From the NCBI GenBank assembly GCA_902768795.1, contig CACXMS010000003.1, positions 1 through 64,000 on the forward strand: a DNA stretch of 64,000 nt, in the 5' to 3' direction. The translations under genes and the position numbers were made by a program. Within the stretch, counting starts at the first letter, position 1, and the number at the start of each line of letters is the position of its first letter. The notes beneath the pieces were generated by a model that saw nothing but the letters and a program-made list of their open reading frames with translations, was not told the origin of the DNA and did not search any database. Below are positions 6,824 through 23,582 of this stretch, piece after piece. Source of the DNA: an uncultured Eubacteriales bacterium (lineage in GTDB: Bacteria; Bacillota; Clostridia; Christensenellales; CAG-138).

Positions 6824-7663
6824 TTATTGCAGCAGATTTTGCAGGATCGGAGCGTTCTTTGCGTGCAGCGCCGTATTGATCGCTTCCGCAAGCAGTTTCG
6901 CCGCGTTTTTCACCAGCAAATCGATGTCCTTCGGCGTCACGAACAGGCCGGACATGGCTTGCCTCGCCGTCTCGTCGGCTTCTCCGATCAGCGCGTTTGC
7001 GCCGACGACCAGCGGAATCCCGATCGCCGTAACCGGCACGCCGAGCGTTTCCTTATTCAACGACGCCCGGAAATTTCCGATTCCCGCGCCGGGGGAAATG
7101 CCGGTATCGTTCATCTGCAGCACCGTGCCGAGATGCTCCGGCGCGCCGGCCGCCAGCGAATCGACGACAAGCACGGCACCCGGGCGCAGACGCCCCGCGA
7201 CCGCGGAAACGATCTCGACGGTTTCGATGCCCGTTACACCGAGCACGCCGGTGCAGAAGGAACAGACGGGACGCGTATCCTTCGGCAGCAATTCCGAAAA
7301 CGCCTGTCTTAAATGCCGCGTTACCAGAATATGCTCCGCCGTTTTGGTGCCGAGCGCATCCGCCGTGATATAACGGTTTCCGAGTCCGACGACCAGCACC
7401 GTGCCGTCCCTTGGCAGCATCTTTTCCAGTTCCGTCGCCGCAAAACGCGCCAAAAGCGACGCTGCAGCGCGGTCGTACAGCGTCTCTTTCGGCATGGTGA
7501 TCGTCACATAACGGCCGATCGGTTTTTCAATGCGCTCGGCGGCTTCCTTTGTTTCGACGTCGATCCGAACCAGTTCAAATCCGTCCGCCGTCTCACGCGT
7601 TTCCGTAACGCCCGGAAGGTCCGGGAATTCTTTCTTTGCTTCCCCTGCAAGGTCGGTCCGCAT
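6824..7663 (-). CDS. gpr: Germination protease GPR, propeptide-less short form
   Basis: GPR is the aspartic protease that degrades small acid-soluble spore proteins at germination. Family motifs are present: RTDLAGEA at residues 2-9, VVGLGNRYITADALG (Asp102), GVTGIETVEIV, VVDSLA (Asp168), SDTG-like NDTGI and KETLGVPV. Two features are odd. Translation starts directly at MRTDLA, where Bacillus GPR has about 15 propeptide residues, and an in-frame TGA six codons upstream rules out a longer form. The protein is only 279 residues because the segment before the C-terminal VTPK block is missing. GGAG precedes the ATG. Confidence 0.93.
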   Translation of the reverse strand: MRTDLAGEAKKEFPDLPGVTETRETADGFELVRIDVETKEAAERIEKPIGRYVTITMPKETLYDRAAASLLARFAATELEKMLPRDGTVLVVGLGNRYITADALGTKTAEHILVTRHLRQAFSELLPKDTRPVCSFCTGVLGVTGIETVEIVSAVAGRLRPGAVLVVDSLAAGAPEHLGTVLQMNDTGISPGAGIGNFRASLNKETLGVPVTAIGIPLVVGANALIGEADETARQAMSGLFVTPKDIDLLVKNAAKLLAEAINTALHAKNAPILQNLLQ

Positions 7664-7714
7664 AGGATTCTCCGTTTTTCATCAGTTTCTCGGAGATTCA
7701 GTATGCGCCGTTTT

Positions 7715-9193: not shown

Positions 9194-9224
9194 ACTATCC
9201 TCCCGCCGTTCTTTTTCTCACCCT

Positions 9225-9253
9225 ACTGTATGACGGAAAGCGCCTTTGTATGC
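9225..9253 (-). promoter_or_regulatory. Sigma-E-like promoter for spoIVA
   Basis: On the minus strand GCATACA (9247-9253), 14-nt spacer, CATACAGT (9225-9232). The -10 closely matches the sigma-E CATACAnT consensus; the -35 is weaker. Mother-cell sigma-E control of spoIVA is established in Bacillus. Confidence 0.65.
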
Positions 9254-9315
9254 CTGTGTTTTTGCGCGTTCCGATTCTGCTCCTTATTTCTTTATTGATT
9301 TTCGATAAGAATGTG

Positions 9316-9344
9316 TTGACGGGCAATAGAAAGCATGGTATAAT
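9316..9344 (+). promoter_or_regulatory. Promoter for the DUF2975/XRE pair
   Basis: TTGACG (9316-9321), 17-nt spacer, TATAAT (9339-9344), 31 nt before the first start codon. Confidence 0.85.
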
Positions 9345-9374
9345 TGCGGCAGAATGCAATCGGGGGGGCTTGCT

Positions 9375-9833
9375 ATGCTTCGTATTGACCGGCGGATTTC
9401 CATCATCCTTTCCTACATTTTCTGTGCGCTCGCGTTTTTCGGCGTTCTCGGGCTTGCCATCATGCTGCCGTTCTTTCGCAACGCAAACGTTCCGTTTCTC
9501 GCCAACCAGGATCGCTTCGGCGTCTGGGGCTATCTCCTGGAATACGCGATCCTCGCGCTTGTGCTCGTTGCGACCTTCTGCCTTGTGCTGCTTCTGAACA
9601 ACGTTCGCGGCGGCGCGATCTTCACAAGCTCGAGCGTCGGCTACCTGCGGATCATCTCCTGGGCTTCGATTCTTGCCGGCACGCTCGCGATCCCGCTCTG
9701 TTTTCTGATCGAATGGAACATGCTGCTGCCCGTCGCGTTTGTCGGGTTGTTTCTCGGCATCGTGCTGCGCGTTGTGAAAAACGTGATTGAGGAAGGCACG
9801 GCGCTCAAGGAAGAAAACGATTCGACGATCTGA
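9375..9833 (+). CDS. DUF2975-type integral membrane protein
   Basis: This 152-residue protein has four hydrophobic helices (about 9-33, 50-74, 93-113, 117-137) and a short charged tail. Size, topology and its pairing with a downstream small XRE regulator match the DUF2975 family, whose function is unknown. The start at 9375 is favoured over an ATG 21 bases upstream because a G-rich SD lies between them. The next gene begins nine bases after the stop. Confidence 0.7.
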   Translation: MLRIDRRISIILSYIFCALAFFGVLGLAIMLPFFRNANVPFLANQDRFGVWGYLLEYAILALVLVATFCLVLLLNNVRGGAIFTSSSVGYLRIISWASILAGTLAIPLCFLIEWNMLLPVAFVGLFLGIVLRVVKNVIEEGTALKEENDSTI

Positions 9834-9842
9834 GGTGGCGGT

Positions 9843-10055
9843 ATGATTATTGTGGATCTGGACGTGATGATGGCAAGGCGGAAGATGTCGCTGAACGAGC
9901 TCAGCGATCGGGTCGGCATTACGCTGGCGAATCTTTCCATTCTGAAAAACAACAAGGCGCGCGCCGTGCGGTTTACCACGCTGAACGCCATCTGCCGTGC
10001 GCTCAACTGCGACGTGCAGGATATTCTGCGGTACGAGCCGGACGAAATCGAATAA
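9843..10055 (+). CDS. Small XRE/Cro-family DNA-binding regulator
   Basis: This 70-residue protein is almost entirely one helix-turn-helix: MARRKMSLNELSDRVGITLANLSILKNNKARAVRFTTL, then ICRALNCDVQDIL, the typical Cro/C1 pattern of YozG-like regulators. It carries no sensor domain. It is co-transcribed with the DUF2975 membrane protein and probably autoregulates the pair; the membrane partner may modulate it. It does not resemble a toxin-antitoxin pair because the partner has no toxin features. Confidence 0.88.
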   Translation: MIIVDLDVMMARRKMSLNELSDRVGITLANLSILKNNKARAVRFTTLNAICRALNCDVQDILRYEPDEIE

Positions 10056-10082
10056 GCACAAAAATGCGGCATGGCTGCCCAT

Positions 10083-10212
10083 CCGTCGAAAAACCCGTTT
10101 TTCGACGGGGATCACGCTGCGGCATGGACCGGTGCATGCCTAAATTGCTTCGCATTTCCGGGCGGCAGCACCGCAATGTATAAAATTCGCCGCGCATGTC
10201 GCTGAATTTTAT
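10083..10212 (+). repeat. Three-hairpin structured repeat, copy A
   Basis: Three stem-loops follow one another: 10083-10093/10098-10108 (11 bp); about 10130-10140/10164-10173 with a bulge and loop containing CCGGGCGGCAG; and 10180-10188/10204-10212 (9 bp) with loop GCCGCGCATGTCGCT. The minus-strand segment 20256-20362 has the same order, the same two loop cores and different but complementary stems. No ORF is present. See the findings. Confidence 0.7.
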
Positions 10213-10284
10213 GATTGTATGCAGGATCTGCTTCCTTTCAAGCAGCGTTACGCGCGGACGGAGCCGCGATGAAACTTCTTTGAC

Positions 10285-10327
10285 ATGCGGCATGGCTGCC
10301 TTTTCGGGCAGCCATGCTTTTGGGTTT
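10285..10327 (+). terminator. Terminator beyond the DUF2975/XRE unit
   Basis: An 11-bp GC-rich stem (10290-10300 with 10307-10317) has a 6-nt loop and a following TTTTGGGTTTT. Its left half belongs to a 16-bp repeat also found at 10064-10079, so an alternative long-range pairing is possible. Confidence 0.75.
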
Positions 10328-10333
10328 TGGTTG

Positions 10334-12184
10334 TTATTTCATTTTCAGCATCCGCATGAATTTGGCGATCACGATCGCCGCGATCAGAATGCAGACGATC
10401 GCAATGCCGATCAGCACGCTGACCCACCATCGGGAGAGCGTTTGCTGCTCCTCGACCTTCTGCCGCTCCCGCTCCTTTTCGGCGTCGGTCTTTGCCTGCG
10501 GCTCGTCGATCCGAAGCCGCGCCGAATCGGACTCGTAGTATTTTGTGCCGTCGGCATCCTCATAGACGATATCGAAGGAGCCGTATGCCTCCCCGTACTT
10601 CTGGGAACCGGAGCGCGTTGTGACGAACACCGTGACCGTCTTTTCCGCGCTCTGCTGCGGCTCCAGATTTCCCATAAATGCAGAGGAGCAGATCAGCCCG
10701 TCGCAGTTTAACGTACAGCGCACATTGTAGATCGGCGCGAAACCCGTGTTGTAAACGCAGATCGGCAGACTGAAGCTCTCGCCGCTCGTCATGCTTTCGG
10801 GCAGCCGGACGTCATCATGTCCGAGCGACGCCATTTGCGTCACCGTCACCGGAAAATCATAGCTGTCCGCGTACTCGCCGCTGCCTGCCGCATCCGAATA
10901 GCGGCACTCGAACGAAAACGAATGCTTGCCCTCGCCGGCGGACGGCAGCGCGCGCAGTTCAAACGTCAGCTTCGCCGTTCCCCCCTGCTTCAGAGGACCA
11001 ACCGTCTGAAAATCCTCCGCGCCCTTATGGCGGATCGCGGCGTCCTGTCCCGTGTATTGCACCTGCACCGCTTCCGCATCCCGCACGCCCGTGTTTTTCA
11101 GCGTCAGCGTCACAGCAAGGTCCGCGCCGCCGTTGACGATCGACTCGTACTCTGCCGCCGCAATCACGACCTGCGGCTGCGTCAGCACAACATGCACCTG
11201 CGTCTGCTCGCTGTAAATTCCGCCGTACCGATCCTCATAAGCGATTTCCACGGTCACGGGCTCGGCGCCCGCACGCGCGCCGAGCGATACCGAAAGGTCG
11301 AACGATACGTCCAGTTTCTGGTTTACGGCCAGCTGTGCAAAAAACTGTTCGGACAGATCGCCGGGACTTTGCAGCGCTTCCGTTTCCGGATGCACCGAAA
11401 CGCGGATGTTTCTTGCGTCGTAATTGCCGACATTCTTCAGCGTCAGCGCGAGCGACGCCGTATCGCCGCCGACGATCTCGGCAGGCGACGTTTGCACCGC
11501 TTCCACGCGCAGAACCGGCTTCCGGACCGTCTCCCGATACGAGCCGCCTCCGCCGCCCGAAGATGCGTTCTTGCCGTCGGTGACCGTAAGCTGCACCGTA
11601 AACGACTGCTGCATCTGCGTGCCGTCCGTCGCGACATAGTCGACCGTAAACGGGATCGGATAGGTTCCGTTCATCCGCTCGCCCGAAAGCGGAAGCTCGA
11701 GCCGGATCAGAAACACCTCGTGCGCCGTGCCGTCCGTCGCCGTTTCCGTTGATTTTAAGACGTCAAACTGATAGTTGCCGAGCACGTACGGCCCGCCCGC
11801 CGAAAGCTCCGGCGTCACGCGGATGCGCTGTCCGAGCGTGTTTCCGAGCAGCGGAAGCACGATGATCGCTTTGCCGCCGGAAACGGTCGGAACATACCCG
11901 TGCCCGTAGGAGGTTTTCATGCCGTCGTACACCGTCGCCGTGTCGATCGACAGCGTTTCCCCGATCACCGGCGGATCCGTCGGCTGCGGCGACGCGGTCG
12001 GCTGGGCGGATGCGGTCGGGCTCGGATCGGGCTCCTGCGGAGAGGGATCCGGTTCCTGTTCTTCCGGTTGTTCGGTCGTTTCACTTCCCGCGGCAGGGTC
12101 CGTCGCCGGATCGTCCTCCGCAAGCGCAAGCAGCGGCATGACTGCCAGCAGCAGCGCCAGAATCCATGCAATCCATCTTTTCAT
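10334..12184 (-). CDS. Secreted, C-terminally anchored CARDB/COG1361-like protein of the ABC operon
   Basis: This 616-residue surface protein has a signal peptide (residues 1-22, AxA site before EDDPAT), a Pro/Ser/Thr/Glu linker to about 75, several beta-sandwich modules with the CARDB/COG1361 signature (LTLKNVGNYDARNIRV, LTLKNTGVRDAEAVQV, ICVYNTGFAPIYNV), a charged helix, one transmembrane helix (about 590-610) and a short basic tail. It is anchored facing outwards. Its start overlaps the ATPase stop by four bases (ATGA), so it ends the permease/five-lipoprotein/ATPase operon. A scaffold or ligand-presenting role is inferred. Confidence 0.8.
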   Translation of the reverse strand: MKRWIAWILALLLAVMPLLALAEDDPATDPAAGSETTEQPEEQEPDPSPQEPDPSPTASAQPTASPQPTDPPVIGETLSIDTATVYDGMKTSYGHGYVPTVSGGKAIIVLPLLGNTLGQRIRVTPELSAGGPYVLGNYQFDVLKSTETATDGTAHEVFLIRLELPLSGERMNGTYPIPFTVDYVATDGTQMQQSFTVQLTVTDGKNASSGGGGGSYRETVRKPVLRVEAVQTSPAEIVGGDTASLALTLKNVGNYDARNIRVSVHPETEALQSPGDLSEQFFAQLAVNQKLDVSFDLSVSLGARAGAEPVTVEIAYEDRYGGIYSEQTQVHVVLTQPQVVIAAAEYESIVNGGADLAVTLTLKNTGVRDAEAVQVQYTGQDAAIRHKGAEDFQTVGPLKQGGTAKLTFELRALPSAGEGKHSFSFECRYSDAAGSGEYADSYDFPVTVTQMASLGHDDVRLPESMTSGESFSLPICVYNTGFAPIYNVRCTLNCDGLICSSAFMGNLEPQQSAEKTVTVFVTTRSGSQKYGEAYGSFDIVYEDADGTKYYESDSARLRIDEPQAKTDAEKERERQKVEEQQTLSRWWVSVLIGIAIVCILIAAIVIAKFMRMLKMK

Positions 12185-12834
12185 TTTGCTTCACCTCTCA
12201 ACATCGTCATTTCGCCCGCGTCCATTTCGCAGACCGTATCGCAAAGGGTTTCAATGTCTGTAATGTTATGGCTCGCCAGCAGAATCGTGCGTCCGTCCGT
12301 CGCGAGCGACCGGAACAGTTCGCGCATCTCCGCGACGCCGTGCTTGTCCAGCCCGTTCATCGGCTCGTCGAGGATCAGCAGCTTCGGGCTTTCCATGATC
12401 GCCTGCGCGATGCCGAGCCGCTGCCGCATGCCGAGCGAATACTTGCCAACCGGCTTGTCCGAAAGCGGATCGAGCCCGACCCTTCGGATCGTTTCCGCAA
12501 CCTGCTTCAGGTCGATCCGGTTGTTCAATGCGGCAAGGATCTCGAGATTTTTCAGCCCCGTAAGATTCGGCAGAAAACCCGGCGTCTCGATGATCAGACC
12601 AAGATCCTCCGGAAAATCAACGTCCTTGCCGATCTGCTTGCCGCCTACGAACACCTTGCCGCTTGTCGGCTGCAGAAAGCCGCAGATGCATTTGAACATG
12701 ACGGTTTTGCCGCTGCCGTTGTTGCCGACGATGCCGTGGATCTTCCCCGCCTCAAAATTGCGATTGATGCCCTTTAAGACCGTATCCTGGCCGAACACCT
12801 TTACAAGGTCATGGATTTCGATTGCGTTTGTCAT
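12181..12834 (-). CDS. ABC transporter ATP-binding protein of the five-lipoprotein operon
   Basis: This 217-residue nucleotide-binding subunit has Walker A GNNGSGKT (37-44), Q-loop region LIIETPGFLPNLTG, signature YSLGMRQR, Walker B LLILDEP and switch histidine ASHN, all intact. It resembles CcmA/bacitracin-type ATPases that pair with ABC-2 permeases. Its only candidate partner is the permease at 20374-22113, five lipoprotein genes upstream in the same operon. The stop overlaps the next start (ATGA). Being short, it has no regulatory C-terminal domain. Confidence 0.93.
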   Translation of the reverse strand: MTNAIEIHDLVKVFGQDTVLKGINRNFEAGKIHGIVGNNGSGKTVMFKCICGFLQPTSGKVFVGGKQIGKDVDFPEDLGLIIETPGFLPNLTGLKNLEILAALNNRIDLKQVAETIRRVGLDPLSDKPVGKYSLGMRQRLGIAQAIMESPKLLILDEPMNGLDKHGVAEMRELFRSLATDGRTILLASHNITDIETLCDTVCEMDAGEMTMLRGEAK

Positions 12835-12846
12835 GCTGTTTCCTCC

Positions 12847-14394
12847 TCAGTATCCCTTGTACAGATCAATCATGCTGCCGTCGATCGCGTTGATCGAGAG
12901 GATCGGCGAATCATTCATGTATTGATAATGCGGCTCCTCGTATGTTTTGCGTGTTTTTATGTTTGTGCGCGTGATCACCGTCGTGCCGTAAAAGTTCCAC
13001 ACCGGAACGAGCAGCCCCGTATCAAACCGGTTCTTTTCCATCACGCGCTGTAAGCCGAGCGTGATGCGCGTAATCTCCATATGCATATCGGACGGATAAT
13101 CGTCCTCAACCACCTGCGATTCATCCAAAATGAGCCACGGCTTTTCCTCGATCCAGACCTGGCTTTTAAACCGTTCCACAATCTTATCGAACGGCAGCAG
13201 ATTCGACGCGGACAGCACGGTCTCCTTTACCCCCAGCGGCGCATACCACGCAAGCTCATACACGCCCTGCTCGTCGATACAGACGGAGATACTTTCGTAC
13301 ATCCATTGCGGCGCAAAGACCTGATCCTCGGCAGGGGTCCCGCGGGATCCCATCATCATGCCCAAAAAGGCGTCCCTGATGCCCGCTGTTTCACGGACGC
13401 AGTTGACGCGATAGCCGCATTGCCCGTCCTTTATATCCGGATAGCAGACGATCGAATCTGCCTTGACCTCCGGGAACCCCACGGACGCAAAGAACGCTTC
13501 CGTGTCCGCGATTGCCTGTGCGGGAGTGTAAGTGATAAACGGATATTCCCGAAGCTCAACGGGATTGTTCGGATCTCGGATCGCTATCCTTGGCGTATGC
13601 ACGCCCCCGTCTCCCTCTCCGCCGCTCAAGTCAGAGCGATCGTTCCAGACGGTTAGCAGCGCATCCTCGAGCCGGTGGCTGTTTCGTTCCTCCTGTCCCG
13701 GAATCGTCAGCTGAACGATCAGCCGGGGCTGATCGTCGCGCGAAGTCGCGTTAAAGCCGTAGCGCGTATAGGTTTTGCCGTCCGTCTCAAATTGCATCAC
13801 GCCGATCGTGCCGTCGCAAATGTCCTCCGAAAGCGTTTCCGGCGCGGTCCTCCAGCGCACCTTCAGTTTCTCGATCGTCTCCGGGATTGTCGCAAGCTCC
13901 TCCTCATCAAGCTCGGCGCGCAGTGCAGGGTCGTTCTGCTGATTTTCGAGCCATGCGATCGTATCGGCGATCTGCGATTTTGTCATAACATTGCTATTGT
14001 GGTACATCGTGCGCCCGCCTGTCAGCGCATTGAAGATGCGCGTGATCTGGTCCTGTGTAAACGTCCCGTGCTCCACACGGATGATCGGGATATCGGCGAC
14101 ATCCGGCACCTCGACCCGCGCGTCGATGTTCACCGTAAAATGTCCGTCCGCTTCGGTAACGGTATCGGAAAGCGTTTCCGGGATCGCATACCGTTCGCGG
14201 ATATGCGTCGCTTTTGGCAGCTCTCCTTTTGCGTCCGCTCCGCCCGCAAAGCCCACAACGTCGGAAGCGGGCGTCGCCGCCGCCTTTTCGAGCATCTCCT
14301 CGGTGTCCTTATGCGTGACAAATTCCTCCTCCGGCGTCGGAACGCAGGCGAGAAGCAGGGAAAGGGATAAGAGAATGATAAGGAATCGTTTCAT
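12847..14394 (-). CDS. Tandem paralogous lipoprotein 5 of 5 (DUF6034-like)
   Basis: This 515-residue lipoprotein has lipobox LLAC at residue 17, then VPTPEEE. The shared N-terminal block VNIDARVEVPDVADIPIIRVEHGTF lies near residues 95-120, and the shared C-terminal signature LLVPVWNFYG ... LSINAIDGSMIDLYKGY at the end. The middle has a Trp/Glu-rich helical insert unlike its siblings. AGGAGG precedes the ATG. It is the last lipoprotein before the ATPase gene, 12 bp apart. I associate the C-terminal signature with the family catalogued as DUF6034; function unknown. Confidence 0.75.
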   Translation of the reverse strand: MKRFLIILLSLSLLLACVPTPEEEFVTHKDTEEMLEKAAATPASDVVGFAGGADAKGELPKATHIRERYAIPETLSDTVTEADGHFTVNIDARVEVPDVADIPIIRVEHGTFTQDQITRIFNALTGGRTMYHNSNVMTKSQIADTIAWLENQQNDPALRAELDEEELATIPETIEKLKVRWRTAPETLSEDICDGTIGVMQFETDGKTYTRYGFNATSRDDQPRLIVQLTIPGQEERNSHRLEDALLTVWNDRSDLSGGEGDGGVHTPRIAIRDPNNPVELREYPFITYTPAQAIADTEAFFASVGFPEVKADSIVCYPDIKDGQCGYRVNCVRETAGIRDAFLGMMMGSRGTPAEDQVFAPQWMYESISVCIDEQGVYELAWYAPLGVKETVLSASNLLPFDKIVERFKSQVWIEEKPWLILDESQVVEDDYPSDMHMEITRITLGLQRVMEKNRFDTGLLVPVWNFYGTTVITRTNIKTRKTYEEPHYQYMNDSPILSINAIDGSMIDLYKGY

Positions 14395-14406
14395 TGTGTC
14401 CTCCTT

Positions 14407-15861
14407 TTAATATCCCGCGTTCCGGTCGATGATGCTGCCATCGATCGCGTTGACGGTTAAAATTGCGGTCGTTCCGTCGTAGCCGAAGCCCTCAAAGCCG
14501 GGCATGTTGTTGTAGTCGGTCAGATGCTCGACGCCGAAAAACGTCCAGCTCGGCACAAGGTACGCCTGCCGCGGCGCGTTCTGCTCCAGCACGCGGGTCA
14601 GCCCGAGCCGGATCTCCGTGATGCGGATCGACGGATTCTCGATCGTGATCCGGTCAAACGAACCGGCATACACGATCCCGAGCCGCTTTTCAAACACCGC
14701 GACAGCTTCTTCGAGCGGAAGCACCCTTACCGCGTCGGAGGAACATTCCAGGATCTCATACGGCGCTCCGTCATAGTAGAACGCCAGAACGCCCTGATCG
14801 TCGACGTAAACGCGCACACGCTCATACCGCCATTGCGGCGCGACGCCGTGTTCGGGATCGGCGTCCGAAGACGCATAGCTGTACAGATCGTTCGTATAGG
14901 TCACGTTAACGCCCGAAACCTGCCGCGTGAACAGGAATTCGTATGCCGCGTCGCACCGTCCGGCCTTTTCTGCCTCCGCGACATATTCGATCAGCGGCGC
15001 GATCCGCGCGTGCGTCAGCGTAAAGTCCGGCGAAAGCTGCAGCCCGTCCATCACGCTCTGCGCCTCGGCCCTTGCGTCCTCCATCGAGCGCTCGGGCGTC
15101 GTCACCCGGAACCGGCCCCGATCGATCATCGGCTGCGCGATCCGCAGCGGGTTTTGGAAGTTGTACGCGTTTTCAAAATGCGTTATCTCCTGAATGTTTC
15201 GGTAATACTCCACGGATTGCGTCGACATCATAACGTGAAAGATGGTTCCGATTTGGGAAATACCGCAGTAGCTCGACGTCCAGAAATCCGTTTCCTGCGG
15301 TTCGCTTCCGGACTCGACAAAGTGAAAATCCATTTCCACGGCCGGGTCGCGGTCGGAATAGACCGGCTCGGCAGGCGCTTCATCCGCCTCCTTCAGCACA
15401 TCCAGAATCGCCCGGTTGATCTCCTCCACCGAATTGTACTTGTCGAGGTCTCCGCTGTCGCGCCGCGCCATCAGACGGTTCGCGATGCCCTGATAATACG
15501 ATTTCGGGAACACGTCGATCGGCTTGCTGTCATTGCCGAGCACGTGCATCACGCGGCGCCGAAACTCCTGCGAAAACCCGCCCTGCCGGATATGAACCAG
15601 CGGGATTTCATTTGTCTGCGGCAGAACGACGTCCGCGTCGACGGTGACGGTCACCCCCGACCGTTCGATCGTAAACTCTTTTTCGACGTGCTTCGATTCC
15701 GGCACGCCGACGATCTCCTCCAGCGGCTCCTCGGGCAGATCCGAAAGCGCGATCTCAATCATCGTCCCCGTCTGCTTCGGCTTTACGACTTCCTCCTCCG
15801 GCGTCGGGACGCAGGCGGTGAGGATGAGCAGCATCAAAAATAGTGCAAGAATCCGTTTCAT
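14407..15861 (-). CDS. Tandem paralogous lipoprotein 4 of 5 (DUF6034-like)
   Basis: This 484-residue lipoprotein starts MKRILALFLMLLILTAC, then VPTPEEE. Shared blocks are VTVDADVVLPQTNEIPLVHIRQGGF near 75-100 and a C-terminus with YLVPSWTFFG ... LTVNAIDGSIIDRNAGY. GAGGAG with correct spacing selects the ATG at 15861 over an upstream in-frame ATG. It is 12 bp from the next gene and 10 bp from the previous. Paralogy to its four neighbours is visible only at the two ends; the central 250 residues are divergent. Confidence 0.75.
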   Translation of the reverse strand: MKRILALFLMLLILTACVPTPEEEVVKPKQTGTMIEIALSDLPEEPLEEIVGVPESKHVEKEFTIERSGVTVTVDADVVLPQTNEIPLVHIRQGGFSQEFRRRVMHVLGNDSKPIDVFPKSYYQGIANRLMARRDSGDLDKYNSVEEINRAILDVLKEADEAPAEPVYSDRDPAVEMDFHFVESGSEPQETDFWTSSYCGISQIGTIFHVMMSTQSVEYYRNIQEITHFENAYNFQNPLRIAQPMIDRGRFRVTTPERSMEDARAEAQSVMDGLQLSPDFTLTHARIAPLIEYVAEAEKAGRCDAAYEFLFTRQVSGVNVTYTNDLYSYASSDADPEHGVAPQWRYERVRVYVDDQGVLAFYYDGAPYEILECSSDAVRVLPLEEAVAVFEKRLGIVYAGSFDRITIENPSIRITEIRLGLTRVLEQNAPRQAYLVPSWTFFGVEHLTDYNNMPGFEGFGYDGTTAILTVNAIDGSIIDRNAGY

Positions 15862-15871
15862 GGGTTTCTCC

Positions 15872-17353
15872 TCAATACCCCGCGTAGGGGTCAATGACAG
15901 TACCGTCCACGGCGTTGATGACAACCAGTGGATTCAAAGTGTCGTAATTCCAAGTTTCAATCTCATTGGGCCAAAGTTCCTTCTGGTGCTCGTTGGGCGC
16001 ATCCGCCTGCAAAAAATACCACACGGGTACCAGCAGGCCTCCCTCCAGAACATTTTGCTCCATGATGTACAGAAGCCCGAGCCGCACGCCTGCCACCTCC
16101 AGCGTCCCGTTCTCCTCCCCGCGGAACCCGCGGTAACTATGCAGCCGGTTGATCTGCCGCTTGGCGATGGTCTCGATCTCCGAAAACGGCAGCAGGGTCG
16201 CGTTCTCGGTCACAACCTCAGTAACGGTCAGGGGGCTTCGCCATTCCAGCTTTCGGATGCCGTCCTCATTCACCGCGCCCATGATGTCCTCCTGATCCCA
16301 GTTCCGGCTCATGTCGGTAATCGGATCCCGGCTGCTCATGTGGAGATACCCCAGCCCCATTCCCGTAGCCGTGCCATGATAGGCGGGCATGAGCCGGATC
16401 ACGTATCCCCAATGAAGTTTGGTCCCGTCGGAACCGTAGGTATCGGAAGCGTTGTTGCCCCAAAGAATCTCCACAACCCGGGTCTTCACAAAGGGGTCCA
16501 GCACCGATTGAAGCATCTGAGCGGCTTCGTTGGGAGTCATGGTCGTACCCGCATGGGGCGTATCGTAATCGTCGGGGTCAATGCGTTCCATAAGGCCGTA
16601 ATCCCATGCTGCGCCCCACTCCCCTTCCCGGGCCATATCCACGGACCAATACGTGGGATACTCATCCCGGGCGAAGAAATAGACGCTGTCGCATTCGAGA
16701 GCGCTCCGATCCCAGGGACCTTTGACCAGTACCGTCTGCTTCATATCCGGTTCCGCCAGTCCATCCCAAACGGGATTGGGAATCGGTTCATCGTCCCGGA
16801 AATTGCGGTACTGCTCCTGGAGATTCTCCAGATTCTTCTGCCAACGGGGGATCAGCTCGTCCAACTCCTCCCGGTCGAAGTCCTCCAGCAGTTCCTTGTT
16901 GTTGTAGGGATCGCTGAGCGTGTTCATAAGATCGCCGATCTGTTTTTCAAGATCCTTCCGGGTCAGCTGATAGACGCTCTTATAGACCGTGTCCGTGTTC
17001 AGCAGTGCCTGTACGATGGCGAGATTCTCTGACGCCTTGAATCTCCGGGGCTCCACCCGGAGCAGAGGGAAGACATCTTCCGTCATGATGCGGATGGGTA
17101 CATCCGCGGTCACATGGATGTTCTCCACGTCAGTATAAAAGTCCCAGACGAGCCGCTCCGGCATCTGCTCCCGCACGGGTACGGGAGCCGCGGTTGGCTG
17201 CTCCTTCGTCCCCTTCGATGCTTCCGTGACATCTCCTATGGCCATTTCAATCATTTTTGCGCTGTTCTTTTGCCGCACCGCGTCCTCCTCCGGCGTCGGG
17301 ACGCAGGCGGTGAGGACCGTCAACAGCAGAAAAAAGATAAAAATTCGTTTCAA
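15872..17353 (-). CDS. Tandem paralogous lipoprotein 3 of 5, TTG start (DUF6034-like)
   Basis: This 493-residue lipoprotein has signal and lipobox FFLLLTVLTAC, then VPTPEED. The shared block VTADVPIRIMTEDVFPLLRVEPRRF lies near 80-105 and the C-terminal signature is LLVPVWYFLQ ... VVINAVDGTVIDPYAGY. It uses TTG as start with AAGGAA upstream, unlike the ATG starts and AGGAGG sites of its siblings. By eye its codon use differs from its neighbours (more GGG glycine and CCC/CCT proline, fewer GCG/CGC), suggesting a separate origin or recombination within the array. Confidence 0.72.
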   Translation of the reverse strand: MKRIFIFFLLLTVLTACVPTPEEDAVRQKNSAKMIEMAIGDVTEASKGTKEQPTAAPVPVREQMPERLVWDFYTDVENIHVTADVPIRIMTEDVFPLLRVEPRRFKASENLAIVQALLNTDTVYKSVYQLTRKDLEKQIGDLMNTLSDPYNNKELLEDFDREELDELIPRWQKNLENLQEQYRNFRDDEPIPNPVWDGLAEPDMKQTVLVKGPWDRSALECDSVYFFARDEYPTYWSVDMAREGEWGAAWDYGLMERIDPDDYDTPHAGTTMTPNEAAQMLQSVLDPFVKTRVVEILWGNNASDTYGSDGTKLHWGYVIRLMPAYHGTATGMGLGYLHMSSRDPITDMSRNWDQEDIMGAVNEDGIRKLEWRSPLTVTEVVTENATLLPFSEIETIAKRQINRLHSYRGFRGEENGTLEVAGVRLGLLYIMEQNVLEGGLLVPVWYFLQADAPNEHQKELWPNEIETWNYDTLNPLVVINAVDGTVIDPYAGY

Positions 17354-17371
17354 TGCAATTCGTTCCTTTCC

Positions 17372-18721
17372 TTAATTTGATTGCAGGAGTTTGCCGTCCG
17401 CAGCGTTGAGAATGAGCTGCGCGCCGCGGGTATGAAACAGGTTGCTCTCCGCGTCGTACCCCATAAAGAACCAGCAGGGAACCAGATCGAAGGTCGACAA
17501 CGAATCCCTGACCGGAACGAACTCATAGCCGAAGATGATCTCCGTGATCTCGACCGTAGGGTCGTCGCCGAAATACTCTCCCGCCGAGCGCAGAACGTCG
17601 ATATAGCTGTCGAACGCTTTTCGCGCCTCATCCAGCGAAATGACCGACGCGTTTTCGTTGACAATTTCCGAAACGACGACCGGATTTTGCCAGCGGAAGC
17701 TCCGAACGCCCTGCGCGTCCACCAGAAGGTCGATGTATTCCGGCGTCCATGTCGGCCGGTATTCCTGCTTGTCCGGTTCCGAATAGCCCATCTGCCACGC
17801 CTTGATCCAGTAATGCGGCTTCGGCATGCCGTTCACCGTTCGTGTGAAGAACAGCCGGTATGCGCCCGGATGTTCCTCTATCTGATGGACGACCATGTTA
17901 TGCCGAAACATGATTTCGGAATACACATGCCGCATTCCGGTAATGCCGAGCCGCGCCAGGAACGCGGTTGCTTTTTCGACCGCTTCCTGCTCCGAAAACG
18001 GCATCTGCTCCGTCCTGGGATCGGATGGATCGACGTCGCCGGTATAGGTTTGCTGTCCGGCCGGCGCGTACTCAAAGACGTAGCGCGGGAAATCGTCGCC
18101 GGTCTCCTGCATGGTCTGTATGCTGCCGACGGTTTCGCCGTCCTTCCGGAGCACGATGTTCAGATAGTTCTTTTTCCCGATTTTATTGACGTCAAACGGC
18201 TTGTCGCGGTTGATTTCGCTTTCCGGCTTTGCGTTGTTATAAGCGTCGATATAGTATTGCAGCGTTCCCTCGAGATAATCCAGCTCATTCGGATCGGTCT
18301 CGCCTTCGATCGCCTCCTGCGTGTTTTTCACACAACCGGCATAGTATTCGCGCGAAAACGGATCCTTCGGCTGCTCGCAAAGCGACGCGCCTTCGGCAAG
18401 CACATCAATCCACGCAAGAATCTGTTCCTTTGAAAACGTGCAGGTTTCCACCCGTACGATCGGGATGTTCCCGGGCATTGGCGCCGTCACATCCGCATGG
18501 ATCTTCACGGGAACGCCCCGCGGCGTTGTGTACTCCTCGTCGATACGCAGCCCGCCCGACGGTTCGTTCGCCTCGCCGGTCACGTTCTGCGGCCCGTCCG
18601 CCGTAGCTGCACCGACGTTTTCGTATGCGTCGGTTCGGTTGATGATCGGCTCCTCCTCCGGCGTAGGCACGCAGGCGAGAAAGAGGCAAAGCGACAGCAG
18701 TACAGGAATTATACGTTTCAT
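17372..18721 (-). CDS. Tandem paralogous lipoprotein 2 of 5, short C-terminus (DUF6034-like)
   Basis: At 449 residues this is the shortest of the five. Signal and lipobox are SLCLFLAC, then VPTPEEEPI. The block VKIHADVTAPMPGNIPIVRVETCTF lies near 75-100. The C-terminal signature is present but altered: DLVPCWFFMG ... LILNAADGKLLQSN, lacking the IIDxxAGY ending of its siblings. AGGAGG precedes the ATG. The missing tail suggests it no longer makes the contact that the shared ending provides, or simple 3' erosion. Confidence 0.74.
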   Translation of the reverse strand: MKRIIPVLLSLCLFLACVPTPEEEPIINRTDAYENVGAATADGPQNVTGEANEPSGGLRIDEEYTTPRGVPVKIHADVTAPMPGNIPIVRVETCTFSKEQILAWIDVLAEGASLCEQPKDPFSREYYAGCVKNTQEAIEGETDPNELDYLEGTLQYYIDAYNNAKPESEINRDKPFDVNKIGKKNYLNIVLRKDGETVGSIQTMQETGDDFPRYVFEYAPAGQQTYTGDVDPSDPRTEQMPFSEQEAVEKATAFLARLGITGMRHVYSEIMFRHNMVVHQIEEHPGAYRLFFTRTVNGMPKPHYWIKAWQMGYSEPDKQEYRPTWTPEYIDLLVDAQGVRSFRWQNPVVVSEIVNENASVISLDEARKAFDSYIDVLRSAGEYFGDDPTVEITEIIFGYEFVPVRDSLSTFDLVPCWFFMGYDAESNLFHTRGAQLILNAADGKLLQSN

Positions 18722-18731
18722 TTTGTCCTCC

Positions 18732-20204
18732 TCAATATCCGGCGTCGCGGTCTATGATGCTGCCGTCGATCGCGTTGACCGTCAGAAGCGACTGTCCGGA
18801 AAACCATGCCCTATGGCCCGGCAGATCGGAATCGCCGAACGCTTCGTTGTAGTCATAGCCCATAAAATCCCATACGGGCAAAAGATACCGCTCGTTTGGC
18901 GCGTCTTTCTTCTTTACTTTCATATAGGAAAGGCAGATGCGCTCGACGACCATCGTATACGACCATTCGCTGCCCTCGCCTTCGTCAAGATAGATCGAGC
19001 GGAAGATCTGCTTTTTGAAAATCTCCAGAATCCGGTCAAACGGCAGCAGCTCCACGTTTTCGTTCTCGGTGCGGACGTTCTCGACAATGTTGTACCAGTT
19101 CAGCGCGACGACCTTTCCGTTTCGCACGAGCACCTCCGCTTTTTCGGGCAGGACGGGATCGTCATACTCCTGCGAAACGCCCGCCGCCTGCAGCGCCGTG
19201 TCCGAACCGTGGTAAGCCGAGTACGGGTAGCACGGAATGCCCGCGACCGTGCGGATCAGCGATACCGAATACTCCTCCGGCGGAAAATCCGCCTGCGAAA
19301 GCCCCTCGTTTTTCAAAAAGAGATCGTTGTCAAACGTGATCGTTTCCGCCCTGAATTGCTCGCCGGTCATCCCGGCAAAGGTCGTTTCGGCAACGTCCAT
19401 TGCCGCCTGCTGCTCCGCCGTTTCGGGCGCGTGTCCGCCAAAGGCGTGCGCCGCGTTGTGCTCCTCATCATACAGCCACATCGATCCCTCGGAAAACGAA
19501 AGATACCGGTTGTTCGCATCCGCTAACACGGTCCGTTCGTCCGAAAAACTGCCGGTCCACGGTTCCATCGCCCCCGGTTCGGGCTGGTTGGCATATTCTT
19601 TCAGATACATCTGCAGATTCTGTTCCAGCACCCAGCGATGTCCCGCATAATCGAAGTTCTCACCGTAGGCCCGGTTGTCAAGATCCGCCAGCTCTTTCGT
19701 CATCTTTTTGATATTGCTCTCCCAACTGACCTTGTTGGCCAGCTCGCGGTTGTAGTTGTAATACGGCCCGTCCCCAAGCAGCAGCTTTGCGATGCGTTCG
19801 CGCTCCCCGGGCGTAAAGGTTTTGATCCGTACCGTAAAAACCGGTACCGCCGCTACGTTCGGGATCTCCACTCCGGCGTCGATCTGTACGTTCAGCTTCC
19901 CGCCGTAGACCTTGCCCGAAACCGCATCGGTCACGCGCTCCGGCGCGCCGAGCGCCGTTCGCAGCGTATTCGGCGCCGCGCCGTTTTCGGGAGCAGCCTG
20001 CAAGGGCGCTTCGCCCGACAGATCCCCTTCCGGCCGCGATTCGGGCTGTTCCGGCTCCACCGCGTAAATCTCGATCGGGCGCTTTTCGGCAATCATGCTC
20101 TCCAGCCGCCCTTCGGTCTTGTTCGCCACCACCTCTTCCGTCGGCGTCGGTACGCAGGCGAGAAGCAGGGAAAGGGATATGCAAAGAAGGATGATTCGTT
20201 TCAT
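18732..20204 (-). CDS. Tandem paralogous lipoprotein 1 of 5 (DUF6034-like)
   Basis: This 490-residue lipoprotein has lipobox SLLLAC, then VPTPTEEVV. The block LNVQIDAGVEIPNVAAVPVFTVRIKTF lies near 110-135 and the C-terminal signature is YLLPVWDFMGYDY ... LTVNAIDGSIIDRDAGY. A long acidic linker follows the lipid-modified cysteine. AAGGAG precedes the ATG. It is the first lipoprotein after the permease and is separated from it by a 169-bp gap containing stem-loop repeats, so its expression may be uncoupled from the permease. Confidence 0.75.
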   Translation of the reverse strand: MKRIILLCISLSLLLACVPTPTEEVVANKTEGRLESMIAEKRPIEIYAVEPEQPESRPEGDLSGEAPLQAAPENGAAPNTLRTALGAPERVTDAVSGKVYGGKLNVQIDAGVEIPNVAAVPVFTVRIKTFTPGERERIAKLLLGDGPYYNYNRELANKVSWESNIKKMTKELADLDNRAYGENFDYAGHRWVLEQNLQMYLKEYANQPEPGAMEPWTGSFSDERTVLADANNRYLSFSEGSMWLYDEEHNAAHAFGGHAPETAEQQAAMDVAETTFAGMTGEQFRAETITFDNDLFLKNEGLSQADFPPEEYSVSLIRTVAGIPCYPYSAYHGSDTALQAAGVSQEYDDPVLPEKAEVLVRNGKVVALNWYNIVENVRTENENVELLPFDRILEIFKKQIFRSIYLDEGEGSEWSYTMVVERICLSYMKVKKKDAPNERYLLPVWDFMGYDYNEAFGDSDLPGHRAWFSGQSLLTVNAIDGSIIDRDAGY

Positions 20205-20221
20205 GGGTTTCTCCTTTCTGC

Positions 20222-20238
20222 GGCGGATGCGATCCGCC
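20222..20238. repeat. Short hairpin GGCGGAT/ATCCGCC
   Basis: A 7-bp stem with loop GCG, adjacent to copy B of the three-hairpin repeat and just upstream of the first lipoprotein RBS. It adds a fourth stem-loop to this intergenic region. Confidence 0.55.
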
Positions 20239-20255
20239 CCTACAGGTGTTCATCC

Positions 20256-20362
20256 GTCAAATCCGGCGACATGCGCGGCGGATTTGACTCCTTGCACCGT
20301 CTGCCGCCCGGTCGCTTGCGATAGGCAGACGGTGTAAACTCGCCGAAATCCTGATTTCGGCG
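20256..20362 (-). repeat. Three-hairpin structured repeat, copy B
   Basis: Read on the minus strand: stem 20354-20362/20341-20349 (9 bp), stem 20324-20334/20295-20305 (11 bp) with loop containing CCGGGCGGCAG, and stem 20279-20288/20256-20265 (10 bp) with loop CCGCGCATGTCGC. It is collinear with 10083-10212 but has different stem sequences. It occupies the gap between the permease and the first lipoprotein, within the likely polycistronic mRNA. Confidence 0.7.
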
Positions 20363-20373
20363 AAAGCGAAGCG

Positions 20374-22113
20374 TTACGACTGTTCCGTTCCGAGGAACAT
20401 GAAGTTATACTTGCGGATCGCGCGAAGAATCAAAAGCATCAAAAGCGCGATCAGCGCCGCGAAGAGCAGGAACGTCTGCCACAATCGCGGAAGCAGGTCG
20501 TAGCCGAAGTTGTGCATATGATACGTCGCATGGTTCAGGGGGCTCAGCCAGCCCGTCAGCACGTTTGCCTTGTACATCAGCTCGTCCGGCAGCCGCAGCA
20601 GCTTTTTGAACAGCTCGGGATTCAGCAGAAACCCGTACAGCGAAAAGCCGAACGCCGCCGCCACGCCGGCGCCCTTGCCGAATTTCAGCTTGAAATACAG
20701 CATCAACAGCACGAGCGTCAGCGTATAGGCGAGCATCAGGAGGAAAATGAGAAAGGCGCATTGGTACGGACGCGACATCTCAAGCGTTTTGACGAGCGCC
20801 GGCAGAGCGACCGCCCGCCCTGCGCCGGAATAGCCCAGGATTGCCGCCGTTTCCGACCACATATTGCCGATAAAGCTGTTTTGCATACAAATCAGGGACG
20901 TCGCGGCGAAAATGAACGTCATATAGATCGCCGTCGCCGCCGCGATGTATAAAAGCTGTCCCCACGCCCAGACGGAGCGCTTCATCCGAACCAGATAATA
21001 CGGCACGCCCGCGCCGAGGAACGGGATGTCCGCAAACAGCAGCACGAGCAGAAGCGATATGAGCAGAACGGAATTCGCGTCGCCGAACGTCCAGACGAAC
21101 GGCTCGAACGCCTGCATCGCCGTATTCATATCGTACGCGAACGACGCGGCTTTGTCGGACAGCAGAAAGCAAAGGATGAACGCGAGCGCGAAGGTCAGCA
21201 GAACCCGCATATTGTTTCGCCACATGCGGAAGTTATATCCGCAGACGGACAGAACTTTTTGCACGGCGCCGGCGCGTCCGGGGCGGCGTTTTTTTCGTTC
21301 CAGCCGTTTTTCGACCGAACGCGGCCGGAAAAGCTGCCGGAAGCGGTGTTCGGATTCGCCGCCGCGGAGTTTTCGCTCGGCAAAGGCGTAAAATCCGAGC
21401 AGCAGAATCGCAAAAACCACGGCCGTCATAAAGAATGCGCTTCTGCCGCCGAGCGGCCACGCGCCCTGCAGCGTCAGATAGTTCTTCGGATTCAGCATGA
21501 ACGCATTGCGGAAATACCGCTCCTGCAGAATGATCAGCACATAGTACAGGATGAAAGGCGCCGCGTACGCAAGGTAGATATTATGGGACATCCCCGAAAG
21601 CAGCATGCCGACGAGCGCCCAGCAGGCGCCCTGCAGGAAGAACAGCAAAGCACGGAACGCGATCGCGCCGAACTGCGGCTCCACGTAATAATCCACCAGC
21701 GTTTCCCGCGGCAAAAGCAGCAGCGCGAAAAGACCGTATGCCGTAAAAATCCCGACGACCAGCGCCAGTCCGCCCGAGACCGCGCAGCCGATCTCCTTGC
21801 CGAGCACATACCGCGTCACCGAGGTGCGCGGCAGGAAGGATTTCAGATAACCGCTTTTTTCGTCGTCGACAAACGCCGACGTATACGGAATTGCGGCAAG
21901 GATCGGCGTGACGAGCAGGATGACGTCGCCGCCCATCGCCCCAAGCAGCAGCGTTTCGTGATACCCCATCTCCCGGTAGGGATAGTCCGAAAAGAAGACG
22001 TCGTACAGATTCGAAAAAACCGCAAACAGCAGGCAGAGCGTCATGGCGCCCGCCGCAAGCAAAAATGGTTTCCCGAAAATCGCGCGTTTCAGATCGGTAC
22101 AGATCGTTCTCAT
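20374..22113 (-). CDS. ABC-2-type permease of the five-lipoprotein operon
   Basis: This 579-residue polytopic membrane protein has about twelve hydrophobic segments in two six-helix halves, split by a basic loop near residues 245-275 (KKRRPGRAG). The first half begins as ABC-2 permeases do: a cytoplasmic N-terminus, a helix, a large loop, then PYTSAFVDDEKSGYLKSFL, a coupling-helix-like sequence. A single-chain double permease could pair with an ATPase dimer encoded seven genes downstream. Only a weak GGGA SD is seen. It is the first gene of the operon. Substrate unknown. Confidence 0.82.
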   Translation of the reverse strand: MRTICTDLKRAIFGKPFLLAAGAMTLCLLFAVFSNLYDVFFSDYPYREMGYHETLLLGAMGGDVILLVTPILAAIPYTSAFVDDEKSGYLKSFLPRTSVTRYVLGKEIGCAVSGGLALVVGIFTAYGLFALLLLPRETLVDYYVEPQFGAIAFRALLFFLQGACWALVGMLLSGMSHNIYLAYAAPFILYYVLIILQERYFRNAFMLNPKNYLTLQGAWPLGGRSAFFMTAVVFAILLLGFYAFAERKLRGGESEHRFRQLFRPRSVEKRLERKKRRPGRAGAVQKVLSVCGYNFRMWRNNMRVLLTFALAFILCFLLSDKAASFAYDMNTAMQAFEPFVWTFGDANSVLLISLLLVLLFADIPFLGAGVPYYLVRMKRSVWAWGQLLYIAAATAIYMTFIFAATSLICMQNSFIGNMWSETAAILGYSGAGRAVALPALVKTLEMSRPYQCAFLIFLLMLAYTLTLVLLMLYFKLKFGKGAGVAAAFGFSLYGFLLNPELFKKLLRLPDELMYKANVLTGWLSPLNHATYHMHNFGYDLLPRLWQTFLLFAALIALLMLLILRAIRKYNFMFLGTEQS

Positions 22114-22148: not shown

Positions 22149-22154
22149 ATTATA
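22149..22154 (-). promoter_or_regulatory. -10 element upstream of the permease operon
   Basis: A perfect TATAAT on the minus strand, 35 nt before the permease start. No good -35 lies 16-18 nt upstream, which suggests an activated promoter. Repeats of GTTGT(A/C)A occur in the preceding 100 bp. Confidence 0.45.
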
Positions 22155-22321
22155 GAACGGGGATGTTATGCATTCGTTAAGAAGTTGTCACAAAGTTGTA
22201 ATTGTTTTCCCCCGTCGTTTTCACTCTACCACGCGCTTGTAACCAAAACGTCATAAAACTATGAACAAAGCATGATTGGGGAAAATGTTACAACTCGGAC
22301 GAATTTTCTTTACCAAAGGGC

Positions 22322-22363
22322 AGAAAAAAAGAACCGTTAAGAAACTCGAAAGAATCTTAACGG
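22322..22363 (-). terminator. Terminator of the methyltransferase gene
   Basis: On the minus strand an 8-bp stem (22356-22363 with 22334-22341) with a 14-nt loop precedes a T-run (plus-strand A run 22323-22330), 26 nt after the methyltransferase stop. Confidence 0.75.
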
Positions 22364-22388: not shown

Positions 22389-23582
22389 TTAATCGTGCAA
22401 AGGAACCGCCGCGGTCCTGCCCTCGGCGTCGGTCAGAAGCAGCGCGGGGCCGCTTCCCTCCGGGAACGGAAGCCGCAGCGGAAAACGCGGCGCGCAGTTG
22501 GTATGCGCCGCTTCGAACACGCTGTTTTCAAGCGTTCCGGTCGCAGCGTAAACGATCGGAGCCGCGCTCGAACCGATCGAAGCGCCCGTGACCATTACGA
22601 CGCGCTCCCCGCCCTTGCGGCCGACCGAGTACGACGCCTCGCACGGAAGCGTTTCCCGGGAAAGATGCAGTTCCAAACCGGCGGAATCGCTTCGGAACAG
22701 ATCGGGCGAGCCGGAGATGGCCAGAAGCCGCTTCCGGAGGATATACGCCGCGACCGGCGAGCTGTCCGAAACGACAAACCGGCGCTTCATCTTGGCCGCG
22801 ACCGCCGCCGTCGTTCCGCTTCCCGAGAACAGGTCCATCACAAGATCGCCTTCGGCGCTCGACGCGCCGATGATGCGCCGAAGGAGCGCCTCGGGTTTTT
22901 GCGTCGCATAGCCGGTACGCTCCCGATCCTTCTGCTGCAGATGCTCAATGTCATTCCACACGTCCGACGGATAGATCAGCGAATCTTCATAGTATTTATA
23001 GAGCTTGCCGTTCGAACGGATCGAAAACCCGACCCTGCCGTCCTCGTCGATAAACCGCTTCATGTGATTTCTGCGCTCGGCGCCGCGCGGCATACCGACC
23101 GCTTCGATTTTGAAATAGACGTTCTTCGACTTGCGGTAAAACAGAATCGTATCGTGCTTGCGCGGAAAATAGCGCTTGCTGCGCCCGCCGCTCTTATACG
23201 TCCAGATGATCTCGTTCATGAAATGTTCCGCGCCGAAAATCTCGTCGAGCACAAGCCGCATCCGCGCCGACATCCGGTAATCGAGATGCAGGTACAGCGA
23301 ACCTCTGCTGTCCAGCAGTTCATGGCACAGCGAAAGGATCTTTCGCATCCAGGCGACGTATTCCGCATCGGAAAGCGTGTCCTCATAAAGCCGTACCGGC
23401 ACGGCGTTTTTGCCCTTGCCGATCTTCATCGAGAACGATTCGCCCGTGCGAAACGGCGGATCGAGATAAATCAGCCGCACTTTGCCGCGGTACTCCCGCA
23501 GCAGCGTCTCCGAAAGCTCCTCCGCCTTGCCAAGCAGAAAAGTGCCCGGTCCTCCGACCGCATGCCGCTCCGTTAACCACAT
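22389..23582 (-). CDS. Orphan beta-class DNA methyltransferase (N6-adenine or N4-cytosine)
   Basis: This 397-residue enzyme has catalytic motif DPPF (41-44) before the AdoMet motif DLFSGSGTT (250-258), the order of beta-class amino-methyltransferases. The TGYATQKPEALLRRII block lies just ahead of motif I. About 110 residues after the methylase core form a C-terminal extension with no recognised motif. ATG at 23582 is chosen because GGGGAGG lies eight bases upstream. No restriction endonuclease or specificity gene is adjacent, so it looks solitary, either regulatory or a relic. It has its own promoter and terminator. Confidence 0.88.
   Translation of the reverse strand: MWLTERHAVGGPGTFLLGKAEELSETLLREYRGKVRLIYLDPPFRTGESFSMKIGKGKNAVPVRLYEDTLSDAEYVAWMRKILSLCHELLDSRGSLYLHLDYRMSARMRLVLDEIFGAEHFMNEIIWTYKSGGRSKRYFPRKHDTILFYRKSKNVYFKIEAVGMPRGAERRNHMKRFIDEDGRVGFSIRSNGKLYKYYEDSLIYPSDVWNDIEHLQQKDRERTGYATQKPEALLRRIIGASSAEGDLVMDLFSGSGTTAAVAAKMKRRFVVSDSSPVAAYILRKRLLAISGSPDLFRSDSAGLELHLSRETLPCEASYSVGRKGGERVVMVTGASIGSSAAPIVYAATGTLENSVFEAAHTNCAPRFPLRLPFPEGSGPALLLTDAEGRTAAVPLHD

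Follow-up and report, generated by a model that had tools for sequence, protein, structure and literature searches.

The window analysed here, a 64,000 nt stretch of DNA from an uncultured Eubacteriales bacterium (GCA_902768795.1, contig CACXMS010000003.1, positions 1-64,000), contains an array of eight minus-strand genes which encode a fused double ABC-2 (ATP-binding cassette) permease, five lipoproteins of the DUF6034 type (LP1-LP5), an ATPase and a CARDB protein. The operon represents a system that is widespread in Clostridia, and we consider it close to an even chance, though slightly short of one, that this system defends the cell against antimicrobial peptides from outside or against small antagonist proteins secreted by others. 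It would then be a stress-regulated resistance or immunity module, with a working mode probably like that of CprABC or LanFEG plus LanI, without the system being a member of those families. An initial annotation of this DNA had described eight same-strand genes, and these are present as described, with a gap of 169 bp between the permease and LP1, later junctions of 10, 18, 10, 12 and 12 bp and a final overlap of 4 bp. To our knowledge DUF6034 has no known function, and we found no paper in the open-access literature under the DUF6034 name, nor any on the system. Many rumen and gut Clostridia carry at least ten DUF6034 copies; the unit, the receptor fusions and the promoter box described below define a DUF6034 regulon with a testable role in surviving the antimicrobials of neighbours.

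The DUF6034 lipoproteins and the unit that carries them

All five lipoproteins exceed the PF19499 (DUF6034) cut-off of 27, with scores of 92.8-235.2 bits, and all five have the signal peptide with a lipobox cysteine (MKR...ACVPTP) that identifies bacterial lipoproteins. As the initial annotation had noted, the ends of these proteins are conserved and the middle is variable: the lipobox cysteine lies inside ACVPTPxEE, and LVPxWxF...NAxDG is found near the C-terminus. The first 30 residues, conserved like the C-terminus, hold the lipobox, the motif C-x-x-T-P and, some 12 residues later, a lysine. Among 246 complete-size DUF6034 genes a generic lipobox is found in 219, and C-x-x-T-P in 201 of those 219, counted unfiltered; in our alignment (A3) the constant TP that follows the lipobox is partly a product of the filter by which sequences were selected. 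When short N-terminal matches are left out, pairwise identity among the five lipoproteins is just 22-33%, and the paralogues are therefore an old, re-sorted repertoire and not the result of recent duplication. The AlphaFold2 model of LP5 (pLDDT 86, pTM 0.86) has a single match in the PDB with E<=0.001, the uncharacterised Eubacterium rectale protein 5COZ. Homology of the lipoprotein C-terminus with PepSY or YycH-YycI, hinted at by a motif and by Pfam matches below cut-off, was rejected, there being no significant Foldseek match.

Our family survey covered 103 genomes and our class survey 393, and more distant relatives were found by a genome scan with the permease. Most of the surveyed genomes are metagenome bins whose contigs end inside arrays, and genes were called with our own codon-based caller. 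The initial annotation had proposed a survey of this kind, for co-occurrence and paralogue number. Within the family DUF6034 is present in 59 genomes and the permease in 41, all 41 of which hold DUF6034 (hypergeometric P=7e-15), while the permease is absent from 18 of the 59; paralogue number varies. Within the class DUF6034 is present in 12 genomes, among them all nine with a permease match above 100 bits (G000, G164, G233, G234, G250, G277, G347, G473 and G480). The window genome has 12 DUF6034 genes, five in the operon and seven elsewhere, the latter solitary or beside a two-component system and with no adjoining ABC genes. The association is one-sided: lipoproteins occur without the transporter and the transporter hardly without a lipoprotein. 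The view that the genes form a single system is thus borne out by co-occurrence, gene order and a shared promoter box, but not as an exclusive arrangement, given the seven genes elsewhere and the 18 permease-free genomes. Lipoproteins away from ABC genes, which the annotation had said would break that view, do exist, whereas a transporter with no lipoprotein hardly does.

Relatives with a species name that have the unit include Bacillus niameyensis, Clostridium zeae and Christensenella intestinihominis. Typically one or more regulator genes come first, followed by the lipoprotein gene or genes, permease A, permease B and the ATPase; a second LolD/MacB-like ATPase often comes next, then CARDB, and some loci add an FtsX-like permease. 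The window permease, like others in its family, joins two ABC-2 halves in one protein, but in several family members and in most of the more distant relatives the halves are separate genes, of about 254 aa and 298 aa, that usually overlap by 4-8 bp. The ancestral unit is a lipoprotein, two separate permeases and an ATPase, to which CARDB, a second LolD/MacB-like ATPase and an FtsX-like permease are often added. In a wider Clostridia ring, reached with a permease profile, the fetched loci have the bare core of lipoprotein, permease A, permease B and ATPase, with CARDB absent. The lipoproteins of this ring (374-417 aa) are weakly DUF6034-like and have a similar C-terminal motif, LVPaW.F...NAiTG. 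Relatives with the fused permease have from 0 to at least 10 lipoproteins between permease and ATPase. Lipoprotein number is a lineage trait, and five paralogues per transporter, which had been thought unusual, fall well inside the range seen in relatives of this genus.

The closest relative has a syntenic locus with the same flanking genes, in which the permease is 85%, the ATPase 94% and the CARDB protein 67% identical. An LP1 orthologue (74%) lies upstream of the permease there and the LP4 orthologue is 84% identical; no orthologue of LP2, LP3 or LP5 is found, and the locus contains a different lipoprotein. The nearest relative of LP3 (66.5%) belongs to another genus, and for LP2 no match in the family loci is better than 1e-20. 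Lipoproteins change position, are gained and are lost, while the permease and ATPase persist. Recombinase-like genes, judged by N-terminal sequence only, are found near some units (L066, L073) and may explain the mobility of units and lipoproteins.

Possible links with protection from antimicrobial peptides

The best NCBIfam match of the ATPase is TIGR03740 (lantibiotic protection), at 184.8 bits, 44 bits above the next curated family. TIGR03740 ranks first, 32-44 bits ahead of the next family, for the ATPases of the window, Clostridium zeae and Bacillus niameyensis alike; for an unrelated ABC-2 ATPase encoded in the Bacillus locus it comes only twelfth. The window ATPase has a glutamate at the position of the Q-loop glutamine (IIETPGFLP). 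This replacement, the 'E-loop', is a mark of LanF-type ATPases. It is present in all 73 ATPases of the system, whereas other ABC ATPases mostly have glutamine where the site aligns.

The permease was modelled with moderate confidence (pLDDT 75). The nearest solved folds are NosY (TMt 0.60-0.68, probability 1.00, best E 2.2e-3, about 15% identity), PmtCD, a mycobacterial efflux pump and ABCG2. The model supports an ABC-2 type permease, an assignment based on fold and not on sequence family, since matches to curated families are absent. The initial annotation's 'ABC-2 permease' is to this extent retained, with the correction that the protein is a fusion of two permeases.

Lantibiotic resistance operons of the CprABC type encode one ATPase, two 6-helix permeases and a two-component system, and a lipoprotein of unknown role adjoins cprABC (PMC5786555). 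The DUF6034 system resembles both CprABC-CprRK of C. difficile and NisFEG-NisI-NisRK in having one ATPase, two ABC-2 permeases, an adjoining lipoprotein and OmpR-type regulation, and in relatives such as L171, L172, L173, L179, L182 and L198 the ATPase, two permeases and a two-component system are clustered. It differs from CprABC, LanFEG and LanI in that its permeases fall outside the curated LanE and LanG families, its lipoprotein fold is not significantly related, and it has CARDB, a fused permease, up to ten lipoprotein paralogues and BlaR1-type fusions.

Small proteins (115-183 aa) with Sec-type secretion signals are encoded ahead of 12 of the 87 unit starts, compared with 7 of 312 control genes (P=8e-5). 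They are found just upstream of units at L186:7786-8834, L190:3326-3712 and 9885-10271, L195:5241-5639 and L192:9167-9526, and further cases are L159:8051-8521, L181:7731-8282, L167, L178, L155, L145 and L146. L190 carries the whole set twice, and some of the small secreted proteins end in GxWxP. One of those tested, in L159, has a peptidoglycan-binding PG_binding_1 domain. Membership in the lactococcin-972 family was considered for these proteins and dropped for want of a match. Because of the ATPase subfamily, its E residue, the CprABC parts list and these upstream secreted proteins, we infer that the unit removes or neutralises antimicrobial peptides or antagonists.

Several results weigh against this interpretation. 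The score of the ATPase against TIGR03740 is far below the cut-off of 309.75 bits. Searched against Pfam and NCBIfam, the permease gives no family at E<=1, so that LanE, LanG and other ABC-2 permease families are unmatched. Solved lantibiotic-immunity lipoproteins show no significant match to the lipoprotein fold in a Foldseek search of the PDB, and 5COZ is not described as an immunity protein. The remaining secreted proteins that were tested match no family, and their enrichment test was devised after the first cases had been noticed. Near the window operon itself we noticed no bacteriocin gene.

Regulation and possible roles of the lipoproteins

The operon promoter carries a box of four repeats with an 11 bp period, TTACAA-N5-TGACAA-N5-TAACGA-N5-TAACAT, which scores best among 127,924 window positions. 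Across the 1.9 Mb genome a three-repeat pattern gives three hits at two sites, the operon promoter and a DUF6034 gene directly behind a response regulator/kinase pair (C6:95045-97082). This count is no excess, the reversed pattern giving two hits, and our argument is therefore based on location, spacing and relatives. The second box (G000:C6:97083-97110) precedes the DUF6034 gene at C6:97281 (L046:9084-10523). The called frame of this gene lacks the N-terminal region and the signal peptide; the gene may be disrupted or its start misplaced.

The promoter analysis, like that of the secreted proteins, was prompted by the data, and the box was afterwards found in independent genomes. After deduplication, 11 bp boxes are present upstream of 14/56 permease, 23/142 DUF6034 and 8/17 response regulator genes, and of 4/453 control genes. 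With periods of 8, 9, 10, 12 or 13 no permease, DUF6034 or response regulator gene scores. Reversed upstream sequences also gave box hits (8/142 for DUF6034, 6/56 for the permease), and for that reason we regard the control by period as the cleaner of the two. A -10-like element with at least five of six matches is found in 20 of 47 boxed promoters of relatives and is missing from 27; in 16 of the 20 the distance from the first repeat to the -10 is 47-48 nt, and in the window it is 47. The closest relative keeps the box on the first gene, there LP1 rather than the permease. Direct repeats with an 11 bp period at a promoter are the arrangement of PhoB/OmpR-type sites, and such a site is what the sequence predicts here.

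In many relatives DUF6034 arrays follow genes for an OmpR-type response regulator and a histidine kinase, and some arrays lie beside possible sigma/anti-sigma genes. The best curated models for kinase and regulator are WalK and PhoB, all below cut-off. In the window genome the two-component genes are outside the operon locus, and the promoter box is their only link to the operon. Relatives also have BlaR1-type M56 receptors that carry DUF6034 at their C-terminus and are encoded beside BlaI repressors (L143:4253-6637 and 7171-9801; also L095, L144, L175 and L177). The two L143 fusions, which were tested against Pfam, match PF05569 (1e-52, 9.6e-49) and PF19499 (3.6e-38, 2.1e-90), and the repressor matches PF03965. 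Seven M56-like fusions with HExxH are listed, and in six of them a lipobox-like C-Q-P-T-P (TTACQPTP) forms the junction after the last membrane helix. As in BlaR1/BlaI, an M56 receptor is paired with a BlaI repressor, and the sensor at its C-terminus is extracellular and similar to the effector protein; unlike BlaR1, the sensor is DUF6034 and not a penicillin-binding domain, and the fusions are found in some relatives and not in the window. The fusions and the two-component context fit the earlier suggestion of envelope sensing or antagonist binding, while lipoprotein handling, also suggested, has gained no positive evidence.

If the operon is a protection system, an envelope signal would be read by a DUF6034-linked sensor, here an OmpR/PhoB-type two-component system and elsewhere a BlaR1-type receptor with a DUF6034 domain. 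The response regulator would bind the 11-bp-period box as an activator that replaces a -35 element, and would turn on the operon and other DUF6034 genes. The externally anchored lipoproteins may capture the attacker through their divergent central regions, their conserved ends docking on shared partners, and the double permease and E-type ATPase would remove the captured or membrane-bound molecule, possibly assisted by the CARDB protein. Several lipoproteins per transporter could then widen the range of attackers recognised. A more specific proposal, which we regard as doubtful, is that DUF6034 is a modular receptor repertoire: each protein would recognise one Sec-secreted bacteriocin-like class, plug into a shared E-type exporter by its conserved ends and, as orphan immunity genes are, be acquired, lost and exchanged between species, with BlaR1-type fusions or two-component partners reporting attack and the upstream secreted proteins being the cognate antagonists. 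If true, this would be a combinatorial surface-immunity strategy in Gram-positive bacteria, together with an undescribed set of small secreted antagonists.

The unit could instead serve cell-wall homeostasis in the manner of YtrGABCDEF of Bacillus subtilis, answering stress in the lipid II cycle by adjusting wall synthesis with no removal of a foreign molecule. The ytrBCDEF genes encode the same kind of parts as the distant loci, a likeness of gene content. These loci hold two ABC-2 permeases, two ATPases (the second LolD/MacB-like) and an FtsX-like permease, and the sub-cut-off WalK and PhoB matches point the same way. We know of no lipoproteins in Ytr. Its regulator is the repressor YtrA, whereas those of the DUF6034 system are two-component or BlaI/BlaR1-like; the window unit is without a second ATPase or FtsX permease, and multiplication and turnover of lipoproteins would be unexpected for a housekeeping module. 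We think this explanation unlikely, even though compounds that inhibit the lipid II cycle are reported to induce the ytr operon (PMC12772383).

It is unlikely, too, that regulation is the main task of the lipoproteins, with every DUF6034 protein sensing a ligand or envelope state and tuning a kinase, BlaR1-type receptor or anti-sigma factor, with the ABC unit as one output. The M56 fusions, the arrays beside regulator and kinase or possible sigma/anti-sigma genes, and the box on lipoprotein, permease and regulator promoters are all consistent with such a role. However, the ancestral position of the lipoprotein is within the transporter operon, the transporter is almost never found without one, and five copies with divergent centres exceed the needs of a single regulator.

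A mechanical or surface-assembly role, in which the ABC-2 pair moves the CARDB protein and lipoproteins and exports no substrate, is suggested by NosDFYL, with which the unit shares an ABC-2 permease fold, an extracytoplasmic partner (here the large CARDB protein) and a lipoprotein. NosY is the closest solved permease fold, but the likeness is of fold only, with E above 1e-3; no nitrous oxide reductase context is seen, and the fetched loci of the wider superfamily, all without CARDB, keep lipoprotein, permeases and ATPase, which makes this role quite improbable. If a lipoprotein gene that lay by chance beside an ABC transporter had recently been duplicated in tandem, as a neutral event, a tandem array in one orientation would result, but this is hardly credible given the age implied by the low identity of the copies, the orthologues in other positions elsewhere and the association with the permease (P=7e-15).

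Operon features and flanking genes

The features of the operon are collected in Table 1. The hairpin with a T-run, which is absent from the list of our consensus scan, divides the operon from a methylase gene upstream. The CARDB protein scores 44.2 bits against a PF07705 cut-off of 22.7 and, as the initial annotation had it, is CARDB-rich, secreted and membrane-anchored; its position after the ATPase is kept in relatives. The inverted repeat downstream is likely a common end with the convergent gene 9843-10055.

Table 1. Positions of the operon genes and associated sequence elements in the window
Feature	Position	Strand	Size	Remarks
Terminator-like hairpin and T-run	22324..22363	-		CCGTTAAGATTCTTTCGAGTTTCTTAACGGTTCTTTTTTT; read directly from sequence
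Promoter box	22163..22201	-	4 repeats	Putative OmpR/PhoB-type response-regulator site
-10-like TATAAT	22149..22154	-		47 nt downstream of first repeat of box
Fused double ABC-2 permease	20374..22113	-	579 aa	
Intergenic region with stable hairpins	20205..20373	-	169 nt	Between permease and LP1
LP1	18732..20204	-	490 aa	PF19499 8.2e-44
LP2	17372..18721	-	449 aa	PF19499 3e-26
LP3	15872..17353	-	493 aa	PF19499 1.5e-47
LP4	14407..15861	-	484 aa	ATG start; PF19499 1.6e-59
LP5	12847..14394	-	515 aa	PF19499 2e-69
ABC ATPase	12181..12834	-	217 aa	PF00005 2.5e-30
Secreted CARDB protein	10334..12184	-	616 aa	C-terminal membrane anchor; PF07705 2.4e-11 in 3 stretches
Inverted repeat	10290..10318		13 pairs	Downstream of CARDB gene; terminator-like on + strand

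For LP4 a start at TTG 15924 (505 aa open reading frame) was rejected as an overcall in favour of the ATG at 15861. The gap between permease and LP1 has a folding energy of -72.2 kcal/mol (z = -3.39), which none of 200 shuffled sequences equalled, and a multi-hairpin RNA from this region could set the expression ratio of permease to lipoproteins. An origin of the gap from a repeat was rejected, the tested motif being found once in the genome.

Anti-phage defence was considered and rejected, as PADLOC gave only generic ATPase matches for the operon, and so was a viral origin, viral structures having given no significant match. Against phage records the permease has one weak match, to a 4.5 kb unannotated record, and a search of plasmids with permease B from the Bacillus unit gave no match. 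On the same strand just upstream of the operon is a DNA methyltransferase gene (22389-23582), type II/III-like according to PADLOC; no adjoining restriction gene was noticed in the reading-frame list. Downstream of the operon are two small genes and a SpoIVA-like sporulation gene (7715-9193), a flank that is also kept in the closest relative (L064).

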